Shown here piece after piece: positions 6,644 to 24,685 of a stretch of 26,955 nt of DNA. Both the position numbers and the translations under genes were made by a program. The stretch comes from a virus. The DNA lies in the IMG/VR virus record IMGVR_UViG_3300035698_031524, positions 1 through 26,955 of that record; one strand, written 5' to 3'. Below the pieces are notes generated by a model, which was given only the letters and a program-made list of their open reading frames with translations, searched no databases and was not told the DNA's origin. Every line of letters begins with the position of its first letter. The stretch's first letter is position 1.

Positions 6644-7313
6644 AAAATTCTTCTTTTATTTCAGATGTTATCGCCGGTTCATATACTTCTAAATTAAATT
6701 TCCAATCAGGATTTTTTGCAATGGCGTTTGTGACAAAAGGGGATAAAAGTAAATAAAATGGAGATATCTTCGATAAAGAAACCCATTTTAAATATAATTT
6801 ACTTTCTATTAGTTTTTCTACCTGTGCTTGATTAGGCAAACTTCCTATCTGTTTAATTAGAAATTTTTTTGTGGCTTTTAAGTCGTTTACAACAAACGTT
6901 TTACCAGCATTTACCTTCATATCTTCAGTAGTTGCTTTAAATTGATGGTCTTGCCTTTTGTAAACATTTTCCCACATTTTCCATCTACGCCATGCTTTAT
7001 CTCCCAACAAACATTGAGGATCAATCAAAGCATGAACTTGTCCACTTTTTATGCTTTTTAAAACTTGTAATTGTGCAATAATGTAATACTTGTATTCTTT
7101 ATCGTCAATTAGTCCTTTTGTTTGATTAATTAGCTTATAGCAAATTTTAAAAAGAATTGACTTTCTTGGGTCGCCATCTTTTCTTAAAATTGTATGCTGG
7201 TAATTTGGGAATTCTTTTTTTGAATAAGTCATCCACATTAATGACAACTTGAATGCTTTTGCTTCTGCTTCATTTAATTTGTATTTTATAATGCGTTCTA
7301 AATTTTCAATCAT
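6600..7313 (-). CDS. Protein of unknown function, 237 aa
   Basis: No family was recognised. The protein is basic and largely helical, with Trp and Tyr scattered through it (for example WRRWKMWENVYKRQDHQF at about 109-126) and no cysteine cluster, membrane span or P-loop. It starts at the left edge of the gene-free region before the polymerase, without a clear Shine-Dalgarno. A TAGGT lies too far upstream to be convincing. Its place next to the replication block leaves a DNA or RNA transaction role open, but nothing specific can be said. Confidence 0.65.
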   Translation of the reverse strand: MIENLERIIKYKLNEAEAKAFKLSLMWMTYSKKEFPNYQHTILRKDGDPRKSILFKICYKLINQTKGLIDDKEYKYYIIAQLQVLKSIKSGQVHALIDPQCLLGDKAWRRWKMWENVYKRQDHQFKATTEDMKVNAGKTFVVNDLKATKKFLIKQIGSLPNQAQVEKLIESKLYLKWVSLSKISPFYLLLSPFVTNAIAKNPDWKFNLEVYEPAITSEIKEEFFILFQNEFQSIPEN

Positions 7314-7430
7314 GTCGCTATTTTAATTTAACCTATAAAAGAACTTGATTCGCTTCTAGTTAATGTATAAGATAACATCTTAACAATCAACATTAATAAC
7401 TGACAACCTCAACTTTAATCTACTTTAACA
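7314..7430. other. Gene-free left part of the 575-bp interval, with a short inverted repeat
   Basis: This stretch contains no supportable open frame. At 7368-7382 there is a 6-bp inverted repeat, TAAGAT AAC ATCTTA, that could be an operator or part of a promoter for the RNA that follows, or for the minus-strand gene at 7313. Nothing else stands out. Confidence 0.4.
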
Positions 7431-7816
7431 CGCAGAACGCTACTGTAAAGCGATTTTATTAATTAATTGATGAGTTCCAATTAAAATAAAATTTAAAAAA
7501 CTAGCTGGCTTGTGACCCTGAAGCTAAAGACGTTGAATTAACAATACCAACGATAGCTAATTGTCTTTAAGTTGTGCCATTATCGAAACCCTCTCCAAAA
7601 AGCTGACTAATCGTCGGAGTGTGTATTCGGTGACTTTTGTCACGTAATATGCTTTTAATGGTTTTTTAAAGACGCAATAACACTGAACTTATAATAGATT
7701 TTGTACTGATGTTGAGAACCAACATTTTGTACGGTTTAATTCGTCTTAAATTAAGATATTCAATTAATTATATTGAATTTTACTTAAGACCAGCTAAAGA
7801 AAGGGTTTGTTCTGCG
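7431..7816 (+). ncRNA. Candidate large structured RNA (or structured leader) upstream of the DNA polymerase
   Basis: Reading by eye, the plus strand forms nested helices that abut one another. An outer stem pairs CGCAGAAC 7431-7438 with GTTCTGCG 7809-7816. A hairpin pairs CGCT 7438-7441 with AGCG 7449-7452. A 15-bp helix pairs 7453-7469 with 7478-7492, with an AA bulge. An inner closing stem pairs TAGCTG 7502-7507 with CAGCTA 7791-7796. Inside it are hairpins CGTTG/CAACG (7531-7552), CTGAC/GTCGG (7603-7617), GTGAC/GTCAC with a UUUU loop (7630-7643), ATGTTG/CAACAT (7709-7725) and GTCTTAA/TTAAGAC (7743-7790). AAACCCT 7586-7592 can pair with AGGGTTT 7802-7808, crossing the inner stem as a pseudoknot. 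A U-G pair in one hairpin favours the plus strand. No terminator follows, so it may be the leader of the polymerase mRNA. I could not match it to a known family. Confidence 0.6.
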
Positions 7817-7888
7817 CATATTTAATTACGTTTCTAGTCAGGTTTTAATTGCTTGCATTTACCAATTTTCGATTCTACAATTTGATCT

Positions 7889-9166
7889 ATGGAAATAGAA
7901 ACAGCATTAGAACAGTTGCGTGGCAAGGCACTGTTTATAAAAACAGAACCACTTGATTTGGATTTTTCTATTCCAAAAGAAGGTTTTGTTGTTGTTTCTT
8001 CAGAAGATAAATTGACTTTGAAGTTCCATTTGTCTTCTTCTAAAAAACAACTTTTGTTTAACTTAGCACAGTTGACAGCTTATACATGCGTCAGTCCTGT
8101 AACTATATGTTGGAATATTAAAAGTTTATTTAGTTTTTATTTAAAACATGTGGGTAAAAGATTGGTTGTTAGTAATTTTTATGATTTGAAGTTTTTAGAA
8201 AACTATTTGGGCATAAAAAAAGACCCACCTGTAAATTTTCTTGAAGCTAAAGAGCGATTGGGGAAGGTTTTATCTCATAAAGATTGGGAAAAAGCGAGCA
8301 GAGTATATATAAATGTATATAAAAGCCTAATTTCCAAAACATTACCGGATATTGAGACTATAGGTTTAATAAAAAAAAGAAAACAGTATTATTCGTGTTA
8401 TGAAATAGAGGGGCAAAGGAACGGGCGGCTGAAATGCAGCCAATTGTTTGCAAATTCTTTTAATCCTCACTCAATGTCAAAAGAGTTTAAAGAAGATGTT
8501 AAACCACCAAGTTTAGATCATATTTTTATGCATTTTGATTACAATCATATGGAACCATCGGTTTTGCAGTGGTTGTCGAAAGATACTGTTTTGTTCGATA
8601 TGTTTTCTAAAGGAGATTTGTATGAATCTGTATGGAAAAAACTAACAACATTAGATGCAACACCTGTAACGAGAAAAAAATGTAAAAAGCTGTTTTTGCC
8701 AGTTATTTATGGACAGGGAATAGAATCCATTGCAGAAAGAAACGAAATAGATTTAGATTTGGCTAAAAAACTAAGAGAAAGAATATACACATGTTTTCCT
8801 ATGGCAATGGGGTGGTTGATAGAGGGACAGAAAATTTCGGGCAATTGGGCTGTTGATAAAATGGGGCGACATCGTTATTTTGACGAAAAAGAAAAATATA
8901 AAATTAGAAACTTTTTGGTTCAGTCGCCTGCGTCTTTGTTTTGTTTAAGTAAATTGAATGAGTTAAATGAAGGTGTGGGAGATTTAGCTCATGTAGGCAG
9001 CTATACCCACGATGGATATATTCTCTATGTGAGAAAAAAAGATGTATCACAATTGAATTTTGTAGGGAAAAAAATTCTAGAAAGCGAAAATAAACTTTTT
9101 CCCGGATTAAAATTGAAAGTGTCATGCGAAGTAGGTTATAATTTGAACTTTATGAAAAAAATATAA
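7889..9166 (+). CDS. Family A DNA polymerase, short form, 425 aa
   Basis: Motif A is HFDYNHMEPS (215-224) with metal ligand Asp217 and the conserved Glu222. Motif B runs R262, K266, L270, Y274-G275, and motif C is HDGYI with Asp375. This is a template-directed DNA polymerase catalytic core. The position equivalent to E. coli Pol I Phe762 is Leu270. The N-terminal 200 residues look like a decayed 3'-5' exonuclease: FIKTEPLDLD (16-25) stands where DTETTGLD is usual, with Lys replacing the first catalytic Asp. At 425 residues it is much shorter than T7 or bacterial Pol I enzymes. An in-frame stop lies three bases upstream of the start codon, no Shine-Dalgarno precedes it, and the structured region 7431-7816 lies just upstream. 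Confidence 0.88.
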   Translation: MEIETALEQLRGKALFIKTEPLDLDFSIPKEGFVVVSSEDKLTLKFHLSSSKKQLLFNLAQLTAYTCVSPVTICWNIKSLFSFYLKHVGKRLVVSNFYDLKFLENYLGIKKDPPVNFLEAKERLGKVLSHKDWEKASRVYINVYKSLISKTLPDIETIGLIKKRKQYYSCYEIEGQRNGRLKCSQLFANSFNPHSMSKEFKEDVKPPSLDHIFMHFDYNHMEPSVLQWLSKDTVLFDMFSKGDLYESVWKKLTTLDATPVTRKKCKKLFLPVIYGQGIESIAERNEIDLDLAKKLRERIYTCFPMAMGWLIEGQKISGNWAVDKMGRHRYFDEKEKYKIRNFLVQSPASLFCLSKLNELNEGVGDLAHVGSYTHDGYILYVRKKDVSQLNFVGKKILESENKLFPGLKLKVSCEVGYNLNFMKKI

Positions 9167-12518: not shown

Positions 12519-13022
12519 ATGACAGATATAGATAACATTTTAGAAGGCAAGACAGCGATCAAGGTAGCCGGTCAAATGGTTGTTTTGAATTCCAAAAATC
12601 TAGCTTTTACAGAAGCAACTTTGAGTGGCTATATGGAAAAAGAAGCGGCTTGGTATGATTATTTTGGTCAAAGACTTGCAGACGCAGAATCAGAGAATCA
12701 ATATTTTGATTTAAAATATGATCAAATATATTCTGAAAAATATACAGAATATAAAGATTCAGGATGTACTGATAAACTTTCCGAAGCTAACGCAAAAGTA
12801 TGTAAAGAGGTTATTAAGGCTAAAGAAGAAGTTATTCTTTCTAAACATAAAGTAAAATTACTTCAACAGCATTTAAGAGCTTGGGATAAGAATCATGATA
12901 ATGCTCAAAGTTGTGGGCATATGCTTAGAAAGTCTATTGATAAGTTGAACTCCGACATTTTTCTTAATAGAGATACAGAAGAATTAGAAGATAAATTAAA
13001 AGATGTTATTGGTAAAAAATAA
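12519..13022 (+). CDS. Probable UvsY-like recombination mediator, 167 aa
   Basis: The protein is almost wholly helical, with charged heptad-like stretches and a block running from about residue 40 (EKEAAWYDYFGQRLADAE) through KYDQIYSEKYTEYKDSG to a C-terminal helix near 129-150. This layout, with an EKYxEY segment, a helix carrying many Lys and Glu, and a final helix with KSIDKLN, resembles UvsY proteins of T4-type phages, which load UvsX onto gp32-covered DNA. T4 UvsY is a little shorter (about 137 aa). No single diagnostic motif exists, so the call leans on the neighbouring helicase, gp32 and UvsX genes. A Shine-Dalgarno AAAGGA is present. Confidence 0.5.
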   Translation: MTDIDNILEGKTAIKVAGQMVVLNSKNLAFTEATLSGYMEKEAAWYDYFGQRLADAESENQYFDLKYDQIYSEKYTEYKDSGCTDKLSEANAKVCKEVIKAKEEVILSKHKVKLLQQHLRAWDKNHDNAQSCGHMLRKSIDKLNSDIFLNRDTEELEDKLKDVIGKK

Positions 13023-13030
13023 AATATAGG

Positions 13031-13263
13031 ACGAGCAAAAGGATAGATACTTTTGCTTTGGGAGTTTTGTCTTCTAAACTTAGCTTTAACGGACGCTGTA
13101 AATCATGTTGAACCAGCGTCGTTGCTATGAGAAATTGCACGACATGAAGGGGGATGCTTTTTAGTAAGCACTGCCTGTGGATTTCGAAAAATGGGATTTC
13201 GTCAAATGAAACCCCGACCAAAGTAAAGGGTTACTTAGAGTGTTTCTTTGTAACCCTTTTTTT
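13031..13263 (+). ncRNA. Candidate small structured RNA with a pseudoknot, ending in a terminator
   Basis: The 246-base gap between the UvsY-like and methyltransferase-like genes has no convincing frame but folds densely by eye. Hairpins: GCAAAAG/CTTTTGC (13035-13056), AGTTT/AAACT (13063-13080), GACGCTG/CAGCGTC (13092-13120), TGCTT/AAGCA (13155-13170), and GGGATTTC/GAAACCCC with one mismatch (13193-13215). The loop of the third hairpin, TCATGTTG 13103-13110, pairs with CGACATGA 13140-13147 with one G-U, making an H-type pseudoknot. The terminator at 13225-13263 fixes the strand as plus. It may be processed from the upstream transcript or have its own start near 13030. I see no tRNA-like end, so it is not a tmRNA, and I recognise no family. 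Confidence 0.65.
13225..13263 (+). terminator. Intrinsic terminator after the candidate RNA
   Basis: AAAGGGTTAC (13225-13234) pairs perfectly with GTAACCCTTT (13250-13259) around a 15-base loop, and seven T residues run 13257-13263. It ends the transcript only six bases before the methyltransferase-like start codon. Confidence 0.85.
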
Positions 13264-13268
13264 ATATT

Positions 13269-13889
13269 ATGGATTTAAAAAAACTAAAATCAGATTTGGA
13301 AAGCGATTTAGCTTCTCAAAGAGTTTCATCAAAAATATTGTTGAATAAATTCATATTATTAGATGAAGATTCAAAAAAGACAATGGCTTATACCGATCCT
13401 AAATATATGCCATTTTATTATTATTTAGGCAAAATAATTCAGGCAAAAAACATAGTTGAAATTGGATTTAATTTAGGATTATCTAGTGGATGTTTTTTAC
13501 AGGGAAGTACAGATGTTGAAAATTTACTTGTTTTTCAACAAAAGTCAAAAGAAGAATATTATCCTAGACTTGCCTACAAAAACATAAAAAACATTTATAA
13601 AAAAGGATTTTATTATTATTATGGTAATGTTGTTGACGAAGAATTTACAAAAAAGTTAAATTTATTTAAATGGGACGTTATAATAGTAAATGAACAGTTG
13701 GAATATGATGCAATGCTGTTGTATTTTGATGTAGCTTGGCAACACCTTTGCGTAGGCGGATTAATTGTATCGGATTATGTAAATAAAAAAGATTCTGTTA
13801 AAGAAGCTTTTGATAATTTTTGTAAAATAAAAAATAGAAAATGTATTAAATTAGACACACGATATGGAATAGGTATTGTGGAAAGGTGA
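13269..13889 (+). CDS. Class I SAM-dependent methyltransferase-like protein, 206 aa
   Basis: The segment NIVEIGFNLGLSSG (61-74) matches motif I of Rossmann-fold methyltransferases (VEIGxxxGxSS), and WDVIIVNEQ (134-142) with the following helix and CVGGLIVSDYV (161-171) match motifs IV to VI, as in the Methyltransf_24 type. The acidic residue usual at the end of motif IV is Asn here. The substrate is unknown. Small-molecule or sugar methylation is typical for this type. The ATG comes six bases after a terminator and has no Shine-Dalgarno, so translation may rely on a leaderless transcript or on read-through. Confidence 0.65.
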   Translation: MDLKKLKSDLESDLASQRVSSKILLNKFILLDEDSKKTMAYTDPKYMPFYYYLGKIIQAKNIVEIGFNLGLSSGCFLQGSTDVENLLVFQQKSKEEYYPRLAYKNIKNIYKKGFYYYYGNVVDEEFTKKLNLFKWDVIIVNEQLEYDAMLLYFDVAWQHLCVGGLIVSDYVNKKDSVKEAFDNFCKIKNRKCIKLDTRYGIGIVER

Positions 13890-21358: not shown

Positions 21359-24300
21359 TTGCCCCCAATTGTTAAAATAAAAGATCAAAATGAATTAGTT
21401 GATACCAGTTCGTTCCCAAAATACGCACATTTTCCTTTTGAAAAATTCAATCCTGTTCAAAGTCGAATATTTGAAATATATGACAAAGAATGTAGTGTGG
21501 TGATTGCAGCGGCCACTAGCGCTGGGAAAACGGTTTGTAGCGAAATGTTCGCTAGTCATGAAATTAGAGAACGTGGGGGCAAGGCTTTATATTTAGCTCC
21601 ATTAAAAGCACTAGCTAAAGAAAAAATAGATGATTGGACTGATCCTAAACATCACTTCAATGATTTGAATATGTCTATATGTACAGGAGACTATAGGCTA
21701 ACACCAGCCAGAAAAAAAGAATTAGAAGTTTCAGATTTTATCATAATGACATCTGAAATGTTGTTAAGCAGAACTAGAAATTTTAAATCTGAACAAAATG
21801 AATTTTTAAAAGACGTTGGTACTGTCATCGTTGATGAGTCGCATTTGTTGACAGTACCGGGTCGTGGGGATCATCTAGAAGTAGGATTGATGAAATTGAG
21901 CCAAATTTCAAAAAATCTTCGCATCGTCTTTTTATCAGCGACTATGCCTAATGTAGATGAAATAGCGGAATGGATCAGTTATTCGCTAACAGGTAGAGAG
22001 ACTTATTTATTGGAATCAAAATATCGTCCGTGTCCTTTAGGCGTTCATTATGAAACATATTGGCCAGAAAAGAACTACGACGACACTGAAAAAGAAAAAG
22101 TCAATAAGGCTATAGAAATAATAGATGAAAACAAAGAAGATTTGTTTTTAGTTTTCGCTCACACGAAAAGAACAGGCCAATTGATGAAAAAATCTTTAGA
22201 AGAAGATGGATACAAGTGTGAGTTTCACAGTGCGGATGTCACAAAAGAAGATAGACAAAAGATAGAAAAAAAGTTTAAAAATAAAAAATTAGACGTTTTG
22301 GTTGCTACTAGTACCGTTGCTTGGGGATGCTATGCAAAAGGCAGTTTGATGTTTGGTCCTGAAAAAACTTCTTTTGTCGAAGATTTAAAAATTAATGATG
22401 AACTTTTATCTTTGTCAAAAGAGGGGACTATTGAAACGGTAAGAGTTTTAGATAAAAACGAATATGAAACAACTGGATACTATGAAGTAGAATTGAAATC
22501 TGGCGAAAGATGTAAAGTAAGCAAAGATCATGTTTTTTGGGGGGCAATGGCAAGAGAATCGCCTGCTTGGGTTGATGTAAGCAAATTGAAAGTTGGCGAT
22601 TTCATCGGCGTTCCTAAAAATGACGATTTTACTAATCCAAAATTTGTAGAAGATGATTTGTCTTATTTACAAGGTTATTTAGCTGGTGATGGATGTTTGA
22701 CACAGGCTGGAAAATATGCCAACAATGAAAATAAAATATTATTAGACATTGCTTTTGGGAAAGATAATAGACACATTGATTATGTTGAGAATCTTTTTCT
22801 TAAATTGTTTGATTATAAAATAAACACATGTGAAGATGTTAATGACGTTAAACACTTGGTGTCTAAGAAAAAATCAATAGTAGACAACTTTCTGAATATT
22901 ATTCCAATAGGTCGTAAAGGGGAATGGCTAATATCTAGTGCTATTTGCAATGACGAAAAGATGGTGTCGTTTTTGCAAGGTTTATATGATGCAGATGGCT
23001 GGCCTGAAAAATATAAAAATGGTAATTTTTCAGTTGCTTTGGCAACTATTAGTTATAATTTATGTCTACAAATAAAACATTTTTTGTTTCGTTTTGGAAT
23101 AAATTGCTCAATATCAAAAAAGAAAATGAAAGATGTTTGTATCAATGGCAGATGGCAAAAAGCTGTTCGAGATTACATCTATGAATTGAAGATCAGAAAT
23201 AGTCATGCTAAAAACTTTGAAAAACTAATTGGTTTCAGAATGAATTCTAAAAAAGAAATTTTATCTGGTTTTGAAGTTAAGGAAAAAAGTTTTCAAGATA
23301 CTCACGATTTGGTTCCTGTTCGAAAAGCGTTTGAAGAACATGTAAATCAATTAAAAATTAAGCATAAATATTTGGCGAAAACATCTGTTGATAAATGGTA
23401 TTTGTTGAATAAAGGTGAAATCACTAGAAGTAAATTGCAAGAGTTTTTAGATTTATTTCCTGCCGATACAGAGTTAAACAAACTGTGCAATTTGAATGTT
23501 AATTGGAAAAAAATAAAATCAATAAAATTTGTCAATGAAAAATCTTCGTTTGTTGAGATAAAAGTTGATAAAAATGAAAACTACATTGGTAATGGGATAA
23601 TATCTCATAATTGCAATCTACCCGCACGTAGAGTAATTGTTTTAGGAGTCCATAGAGGCATGAATGAAGTGGCCACCTACGACATTTGGCAAATGGTAGG
23701 CCGATCAGGGCGAGTAGGGCTTGATCCTCGTGGAGACGCTTACATACTGCTTCCATACGGTCATGAGGTTAAGCATATGGAGAGGTTAAAAGATCACCAA
23801 CCGATAGAATCTAGATTGTTAGATCATGTGGGGACTTTTAAGAATGCTCATTATAAAACATTGGCTTTTCATCTAGTGAGTGAAATACACCATAAGAGCA
23901 TTCAAACTCTTGACGATATTCACAAATGGTATCAAAAATCTTTAGCACATTTTCAGGCAAAAGATTTAGACGATGAAATAGTTTTGTCAACAATGGAATC
24001 GTTAGAAAAGTGCGGGGCTATTAAAAAAGAAGGTGATATATACAAAGTTACAGCTATAGGCATGGTAGCTAGTATGTTTTACTTTAGCCCGTTTGATGTG
24101 TCTGATTTGAGGAAGAATTTCAAGGCTCTATTTGCAAGTGGTCAGGAAAACAATGATATGATATTGTCTATATGTTTGGGGAATATAGACTCAAATAGAA
24201 TGGGAATAGCTAGTAAAGCTGAAAAAGCAGTTTTTATAAACTATAAATTGAAATTAGAAGGTATGTTTGGAAAAGGCGAATTTACAGATGCCGCATTAAA

Positions 24301-24685
24301 AACTGGTTATGCATATTATTCGTTGATGAACGGGATCAATTCTCCTGTTTTGTTGTCGTATCAAAAAACATTGCAATGGGATGCTCCTAGACTTATTCAA
24401 GTTTTGAATTCTTTAGATCAAATAAATTGTAAATGGGACAGAGAAGAATGGTTTGGGGATTTAGCTTCTAGAATGTCTTATGGCGTAAAATCCCATTTGA
24501 TAAATTTAGTTAGACTGCCAAATATAGGAAAAGTGAGAGCGGAAAGACTATGGGATGCAGGGATAAAAACTCCTAGCGATGTTGCCGAAAATGCTAACAA
24601 AGTTAAATCAGTATTAAATATGAAGGCTGATAAAGTGAAAGAAATATGTGAAATAGCTCAATTGATGAAAGGAACAAATGCTTAA
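21359..24685 (+). CDS. Hel308/Ski2-like DNA helicase interrupted by an intein, 1108 aa precursor
   Basis: Helicase motifs are Walker A ATSAGKT (52-58), TxxE-like TSEML (131-135), DESH (159-162), SATMP (193-197), motif V split by the intein (TSTVAWG up to 323, then CNLPARR from 752) and motif VI QMVGRSGR (778-785). A C-terminal helix-hairpin-helix, LVRLPNIGKVRAERLW, ends the protein. Removing the 428-residue intein leaves 680 residues, the size of Hel308 enzymes, which unwind stalled forks 3' to 5'. This family is best known from archaea and eukaryotes and is not part of T4. The TTG start is chosen for GAGAGG seven bases upstream. It overlaps the next gene by eight bases. Confidence 0.87.
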   Translation: MPPIVKIKDQNELVDTSSFPKYAHFPFEKFNPVQSRIFEIYDKECSVVIAAATSAGKTVCSEMFASHEIRERGGKALYLAPLKALAKEKIDDWTDPKHHFNDLNMSICTGDYRLTPARKKELEVSDFIIMTSEMLLSRTRNFKSEQNEFLKDVGTVIVDESHLLTVPGRGDHLEVGLMKLSQISKNLRIVFLSATMPNVDEIAEWISYSLTGRETYLLESKYRPCPLGVHYETYWPEKNYDDTEKEKVNKAIEIIDENKEDLFLVFAHTKRTGQLMKKSLEEDGYKCEFHSADVTKEDRQKIEKKFKNKKLDVLVATSTVAWGCYAKGSLMFGPEKTSFVEDLKINDELLSLSKEGTIETVRVLDKNEYETTGYYEVELKSGERCKVSKDHVFWGAMARESPAWVDVSKLKVGDFIGVPKNDDFTNPKFVEDDLSYLQGYLAGDGCLTQAGKYANNENKILLDIAFGKDNRHIDYVENLFLKLFDYKINTCEDVNDVKHLVSKKKSIVDNFLNIIPIGRKGEWLISSAICNDEKMVSFLQGLYDADGWPEKYKNGNFSVALATISYNLCLQIKHFLFRFGINCSISKKKMKDVCINGRWQKAVRDYIYELKIRNSHAKNFEKLIGFRMNSKKEILSGFEVKEKSFQDTHDLVPVRKAFEEHVNQLKIKHKYLAKTSVDKWYLLNKGEITRSKLQEFLDLFPADTELNKLCNLNVNWKKIKSIKFVNEKSSFVEIKVDKNENYIGNGIISHNCNLPARRVIVLGVHRGMNEVATYDIWQMVGRSGRVGLDPRGDAYILLPYGHEVKHMERLKDHQPIESRLLDHVGTFKNAHYKTLAFHLVSEIHHKSIQTLDDIHKWYQKSLAHFQAKDLDDEIVLSTMESLEKCGAIKKEGDIYKVTAIGMVASMFYFSPFDVSDLRKNFKALFASGQENNDMILSICLGNIDSNRMGIASKAEKAVFINYKLKLEGMFGKGEFTDAALKTGYAYYSLMNGINSPVLLSYQKTLQWDAPRLIQVLNSLDQINCKWDREEWFGDLASRMSYGVKSHLINLVRLPNIGKVRAERLWDAGIKTPSDVAENANKVKSVLNMKADKVKEICEIAQLMKGTNA
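22328..23611 (+). other. Intein with LAGLIDADG homing endonuclease, 428 aa
   Basis: Residues 324-751 of the helicase precursor form the intein. It begins with the nucleophile Cys324 (CYAKGSLMFG) and has block B SKDHVFWG with its conserved His at intein position 68. Two dodecapeptide LAGLIDADG motifs, LQGYLAGDG (114-122) and LQGLYDADG (216-224), each keep a catalytic Asp. It ends ENYIGNGIISHN with His427-Asn428. The +1 extein residue is Cys752, so all protein-splicing residues are intact. Insertion is inside helicase motif V (AWG / CNLP), a highly conserved site where an unspliced protein would be inactive. The endonuclease would spread the element to intein-free alleles. Both catalytic parts look functional. 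Confidence 0.93.

Follow-up and report, generated by a model that had tools for sequence, protein, structure and literature searches.

The interval between the 167-aa and 206-aa genes (13031–13263) of the 26,955-base virus record analysed here in full (the window) encodes a structured RNA, which we designate RNA1, at 13052–13263; it is approximately 210 nt long including its terminator. As far as comparison of sequences can establish them, its fold, its pseudoknot pairing and its conserved genomic place are demonstrated, and this comparative analysis upheld the proposal, made in a preliminary description, of a small pseudoknotted RNA that carries a terminator of its own. RNA1 occurs in a lineage of phages that have not been cultivated and that possess replication genes of the T4 type; some of their genomes run to hundreds of kilobases. 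Stand-alone structured phage RNAs are a known kind, and the RNA1 family itself is new. Our preferred interpretation is that RNA1 is a stand-alone, late-expressed, protein-bound RNA that acts in trans, a reading to which, taken as a whole, we assign a probability of roughly 0.58.

The predicted folding energy of the interval is −70.7 kcal/mol versus −53.6 ± 4.4 in dinucleotide shuffles (z −3.9), and none of 200 shuffles was as good. The fold is closed by helix P1, the 5′ strand of which (13053–13061) lies close to the inferred 5′ end of the RNA and pairs with 13218–13226, where P1 and the terminator abut (the parts of RNA1, its promoter-like element and both neighbouring genes are all on the plus strand). 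This is followed by hairpin P2 (AGTTT/AAACT, 13063–13080), which carries a conserved GUCUUC in its loop, and by hairpin P3 (GACGCTG/CAGCGTC, 13093–13120). Within the P3 loop, pseudoknot strand a, TCATGTTG (13103–13110), pairs with strand b, CGACATGA (13140–13147), to form an 8-bp helix with one G-U pair. Helix P4 (13131–13139 with 13177–13185, one bulged G) encloses hairpin H5 (13148–13176), which contains a GA bulge at 13153–13154 with an invariant U-A pair above it, and hairpin P6 (GGG(A)TTTC/GAAACCC) occupies 13193–13214. The intrinsic terminator hairpin (13225–13263) has a perfect 10-bp stem (13225–13234 with 13250–13259), the pentaloop GTGTT at 13240–13244 and a run of seven T residues at 13257–13263. 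Inspection of the sequence recovered every element of the preliminary description, including the 8-bp pairing, the perfect terminator and all five hairpins, the first of which (13034–13057) exists as letters and is not conserved. That description had not noticed P1 or P4, both of which are conserved, and had begun the RNA at 13031, which the comparative data move to near 13053.

Compensatory change supports every helix of the closed domain and the pseudoknot. In an alignment of 43 rows that includes the window (A12), in which members of the family share a mean pairwise identity of 44% and the nearest relative of the window (L087) is 56% identical to it, 87.9% of 1812 cells were paired across the whole structure, compared with 37–42% when the partners were slid by one to three columns, and 625 cells were changed on both sides versus 204 ± 13 in shuffles. 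Individual helices were paired in 91.3% (P1, with covariation), 74.3% (P2, with both-side changes in 6/6 pairs), 74.8% (P3, covarying), 88.6% and 81.2% (P4, scored as two helices), 96.0% (H5) and 84.3% (P6, with both-side changes in 3/3 pairs) of cells. The preliminary description had named non-compensated changes in the stems as an outcome that would refute it; the opposite was found. For the pseudoknot, an earlier alignment (A11) showed standard pairs at all six of six columns in each of the 24 rows with letters there, so that 100% of cells were paired versus 81.6% in shuffles and 23–58% when slid, and 39 cells were changed on both sides versus 12.0 ± 3.4 in shuffles. Among the 43 rows of A12, 34 formed six of the six pairs, eight formed five and one was gapped. 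Pseudoknots cannot be represented in Infernal models, so this pairing had no part in fitting the alignments. The aligned rows are related, the cells do not represent independent events and the nested helices, unlike the pseudoknot, took part in the model fit; moreover, covariation alone cannot exclude that the pseudoknot pairing, inferred here from aligned sequences, takes place between two molecules.

Recognition of the family depended on synteny and then on covariance models. Five viral loci were found by way of the replicative-helicase gene upstream, and for the methyltransferase-like (A1) and uvsY-like (A2) alignments the best 80 of 109 and the best 80 of 117 loci were taken. In the three syntenic intervals examined first (L002, L003 and L004), the DNA could not usefully be aligned with the window by BLAST. 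By eye, these intervals share its plan: P1, P2 with a GUCUUC-like loop, P3 with a loop that pairs downstream, H5 bulged by two bases, P6 with a GGG/CCC stem, the return strand of P1 and a terminator. Since MAFFT alone misaligned distant members, ten were aligned by hand, and the three of these with an acceptable MAFFT alignment formed the first covariance model, R1. Searching 92 sources (1.03 Mb) with R1 gave nine matches at E ≤0.01, six of them new, from which R2 was built without the window. A filtered R2 search returned 25 matches at E <0.1, all on the plus strand, and the window was not among them; an unfiltered search of seven sources ranked it first at 13052–13224 (L001 1553–1725; 27.9 bits, E 2.3e-5). 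R3, built from 25 sequences with the window left out, was run with filters on 72 sources (809 kb) and recovered the window at the same position, with a modest score of 30.8 bits (E 1.5e-5). Of the 26 matches listed, 21 had E ≤0.019, and two of these 21 (L016 and L123) were training rows. A descriptor scan of our own gave 18 real matches versus one shuffled match at a score of at least 66, with many false positives below that score, and missed L016. One locus (L111), with a recognisable copy that scores below threshold, and perhaps two others (L038 and L044) were judged real by eye and missed by the models, so the numbers of loci without a copy are maxima; L039 and L121, which are one contig, both stand within the locus counts.

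Outside this collection, relatives are scarce. DNA-level comparison of RNA1 with annotated phages yielded only short chance matches, and among bacterial genomes, considered for host inference, none of 11 pattern matches encoded a relative. Within the annotated phage collection, the uvsY-like and methyltransferase-like genes have a single relative, LR756511.1, an unannotated 595-kb uncultured phage. Upstream of its methyltransferase-like gene (L167, 7733–7932) lies a divergent RNA1 candidate with an E of 0.059 in an unfiltered R3 search, in which a GA-bulge hairpin (GAG-GA-TGG/CCA-CTC) and an NNGUN terminator loop can be seen by eye; a stricter R3 scan of the whole record gave no match. The whole-record R3 search found one copy each in 13 of 49 records, four of these 13 being 225–527 kb long, and none in T4, Mosig, G, phiKZ, S-PM2 or SPO1.

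The 5′ boundary of RNA1 is marked by an element, GATAGATA (13042–13049), that matches six of the eight positions of TATAAATA, which we take to be the T4 late promoter consensus. Elements of this type just 5′ of P1 reach at least six of eight positions in 27 of 36 relatives versus 6.2 expected, and seven of eight in 8 of 36 versus 0.8 expected, where the expectation comes from random positions in the same loci. As this background was drawn from whole loci and not from AT-rich intergenic DNA, the enrichment is overstated. In the window the element falls between the two arms of the first hairpin, AGCAAAAG (13034–13041) and CTTTTGCT (13050–13057). This hairpin probably lies outside the RNA, to judge from the sequences compared, and was dropped because it straddles the promoter-like element and has no counterpart in the relatives closest to the window (L087, L088, L090 and L144). 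The position of the element and the absence of the hairpin put the ends of the RNA near 13053 and at 13263. A putative promoter and a terminator belonging to RNA1 itself, both well supported, suggest a stand-alone gene.

The bases that change least are concentrated in a few places. In A12, the near-invariant positions are UCUUC of the P2 loop, the U before P3, the AUC after P3 and the A after the pseudoknot strand. The bulged G and A of H5 are each conserved in 93% of rows, the U-A pair above the bulge is present in 43/43 rows and a U-G wobble in 37/42, and the A of the P6 loop occurs in all 42 rows with a letter there. The terminator is present in 30 of 36 relatives and was detected in 35 of the 43 aligned members, 25 of which have pentaloops, every one of them NNGUN; a GU lies within the loop of 32 of the 35. 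By comparison, NNGUN occurred in none of 44 pentaloops among 294 other terminator-like hairpins from the same loci, a control set that was detected more loosely and includes many weak hairpins. Kissing of the terminator loop with the P2, J3, H5 or P6 loops was not clearly above permuted pairing: the P2 pairing was matched by 26 of 300 permutations, and pairing with the other loops by more.

We propose that transcription of RNA1 would start at the late-type promoter element, late in infection, and that the transcript would fold into a compact domain closed by P1 and containing P2, P3, P4/H5 and P6, whose hairpins would be locked when the P3 loop forms the pseudoknot with the strand preceding H5; the transcript would end at its own terminator. 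RNA1 would then act in trans as a protein-bound RNA, with likely protein contacts at the UCUUC loop, the AUC after P3, the GA bulge with its U-A and U-G pairs, and the NNGUN loop. The protein-bound reading stems from the observation that conservation falls on unpaired or bulge positions, whereas the helices drift freely. Late transcription from the promoter element, action in trans and protein binding are inferences, as no transcript data are available and no protein partner has been identified. A decoy or regulator role, raised in the preliminary description, is neither demonstrated nor excluded. A bolder form of the hypothesis is possible and remains tentative, being in our estimate doubtful: that RNA1 represents a new RNA class, a core, single-copy component of a huge-phage lineage that forms a dedicated ribonucleoprotein with a nearby-encoded phage protein (e.g. 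the methyltransferase-like or uvsY-like protein), serves a late role in replication, recombination or transcription, and uses its terminator hairpin also as a protein-binding site.

The conserved loops are also what would be expected of a base-pairing small RNA, in which the GUCUUC loop and the NNGUN loop of the terminator would pair with phage or host mRNAs. An RNA that ends in a terminator and carries conserved single-stranded loops rich in CU and GU fits this possibility, which we nevertheless consider improbable, for an antisense RNA would not need a structure nearly as elaborate, or as strongly preserved, as that of the rest of RNA1, and pairing of the terminator loop with other loops within the RNA did not exceed permuted pairing.

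The genomic place of RNA1 is as constant as its fold. Its 5′ neighbour in the window is a uvsY-like gene (167 aa, 12519–13022) at a conserved position, and its 3′ neighbour a methyltransferase-like gene, MT (206 aa, 13269–13889; phrog_15516, E 2.6e-5). The names given to both genes in the preliminary description are weakly supported. The uvsY-like label has position and a weak motif in its favour, and UvsY identity was confirmed neither by comparing profiles with T4 UvsY, which gave no significant result, nor by solved structures, none of whose chains matched; the methyltransferase label has a Pfam match (Methyltransf_24), but at 24.7 bits it is below the cut-off of 26.3. RNA1 was found in 43 of 92 loci: the window itself, 23 of the 47 loci retrieved with MT and 19 of the 44 retrieved with the uvsY-like protein. 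Where both genes are visible it always lies between them; in one locus (L067) it overlaps the end of the uvsY-like gene by 20 nt. MT is visible in 41 of the RNA1 loci, and in all of them RNA1 lies 49–2764 nt upstream on the strand that also carries MT. No copy was detected in 49 of the 92 loci, including some that are near relatives by their flanking genes (L020, L022 and L023). Homologues lacking the interval were the other finding that, by the preliminary description, would speak against the RNA; such loci exist as far as detection goes, and whether RNA1 was lost from them or diverged beyond recognition cannot be told apart. In five loci (L025, L031, L047, L049 and L069) RNA1 lies between minus-strand genes on both sides, the downstream one, which separates it from MT, encoding UDP-galactopyranose mutase in all five. 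A sixth (L048) appears by inspection to have the same minus-strand flanking, its neighbours being outside the Pfam search. Because minus-strand genes flank it in these five loci, RNA1 would need its own promoter and terminator there, and this arrangement indicates a stand-alone gene and not a leader. In one of the five (L049), the mutase gene adjoins a glycosyltransferase gene.

Several features were observed directly upstream of MT. In the window (13257–13271) the MT start codon follows the T-run of the terminator by 5 nt and no Shine-Dalgarno sequence was seen, and in the four nearest relatives (L087, L088, L090 and L144) the start codon comes directly after the T-run. In 11 distinct loci, identified by pattern, a second small conserved element, RNA2, lies directly upstream of the MT start (L003 2787, L119 7823, L130 8347, L149 3540, L064 5940, L067 935 and five more). 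RNA2 is a hairpin with an internal loop, CUCAAGUC opposite GGGCGAUAGG, whose stems differ between loci and which often follows a TATATAA-like element; it is absent from the window, and four examples (L018, L011, L067 and L046) gave no relevant match in Rfam.

These arrangements bear on the suggestion that RNA1 is a cis-acting leader of MT, a riboswitch or attenuator in which the fold would decide whether the terminator forms. Its constant position ahead of MT on the strand they share, at a distance of no more than 400 nt in 21 of 41 loci, the abutment of P1 and terminator, and, in the window, the 5 nt between T-run and start codon without a visible Shine-Dalgarno sequence are all compatible with such a role. 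A leader should hold a fixed position upstream of its gene, which is not the case where MT lies 755–2764 nt away (20 of 41 loci) or where a minus-strand gene intervenes (the five loci above); furthermore, no alternative pairing of P1 and terminator was seen, by eye only, and RNA2, directly upstream of MT in its 11 loci, fits a leader role better. We therefore consider that RNA1 has little prospect of proving to be a leader.

RNA1 also matches no known Rfam family, in keeping with the statement in the preliminary description that no family could be recognised. None of the 4227 families of Rfam 15 matched the window or ten further loci at the gathering threshold, which rules out a known Rfam family, and a relaxed search of window positions 12950–13330 and five further loci gave only weak, unrelated, sub-threshold matches. 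A tRNA or tmRNA, the latter already set aside in that description, is ruled out, as ARAGORN found no genes and no Rfam tmRNA model matched. The assertion that the interval has no coding frame also held: ORF-like frames overlap RNA1 on the minus (13006–13221, 71 aa) and plus (13154–13348, 64 aa) strands, neither has meaningful relatives, and protein coding was rejected, the best match being a single one of nine residues at E 0.33. A literature search, which reached mainly titles and the openings of abstracts and few subscription papers, found no description of RNA1.

Among the known RNAs that RNA1 resembles is the phi29 pRNA, which is encoded by the phage, gene-sized and folded, with a terminal closing helix and loop pairing. 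RNA1 is similar in each of these respects; it differs in that its P3 loop pairs with a junction strand, in its replication neighbourhood, in ending at a terminator and in having no match in Rfam. A role as a pRNA-like structural or packaging RNA, or as a ribozyme, would suit the size and compact fold of RNA1, its few strictly conserved unpaired bases and its late-type promoter element. We hold this to be quite unlikely, because Rfam, whose families include pRNA and ribozymes, gave no match and because the neighbours are replication genes, not head or packaging genes. The Rfam pRNA model, applied to the question of a phi29-type pRNA, did not match.

The stable RNAs C and D of T4 lie in its tRNA cluster. 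They and the uvsY transcript at oriF resemble RNA1 in being small RNAs or transcripts of a T4-type phage, and differ in that R3 matches nothing in T4. A replication primer or origin RNA like that uvsY transcript is very unlikely, even though RNA1 adjoins the uvsY-like gene and replication genes and oriF is annotated at uvsY in the T4 record, where the transcript is given as the primer. Against it, GC skew does not change sign across RNA1 in any of 16 loci (a weak test in phages with several origins) or near 13 kb of the window, oriF does not use an RNA that is pseudoknotted and ends in a terminator, and RNA1 sits among minus-strand genes in five loci.

Three further comparisons can be made. 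The 6S RNA and other protein-binding regulatory RNAs offer a possible shared mode, that of a folded RNA binding a protein, although RNA1 lacks a long bulged hairpin and has no match in Rfam. The GOLLD and ROOL RNAs are much larger than RNA1, which differs from them in size and in having no Rfam match. These RNAs of phages and prophages resemble RNA1 in being conserved, ornate, often phage-borne and of unknown function (see PMC12286853). Huge phages carry tmRNAs (PMC7162821); RNA1, with no tRNA-like domain and no Rfam tmRNA match, is unlike these.

Across distant phages the knotted fold and its place persist although almost every letter differs, from which we conclude that RNA1 must do a job, and its presence as a single copy, fixed in the replication module at a mean pairwise identity of approximately 44%, points to a real task in this lineage. 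Very large phage genomes have so far been mined mostly for proteins, tRNAs and CRISPR arrays, and RNA1 serves as a warning that annotation reliant on Rfam misses genes of this kind. It supplies a covariance model, a defined fold and near-invariant bases that are open to direct testing.

Two further features of the window were noted. GC skew and gene direction switch together near 7.5 kb (within 7000–8000), dividing a minus-strand block of genes from a plus-strand block, and an ORF of 1108 aa at 21359–24685 resembles a Ski2-like helicase whose middle portion appears, by eye, to be intein-like, with a homing endonuclease of the LAGLIDADG type.
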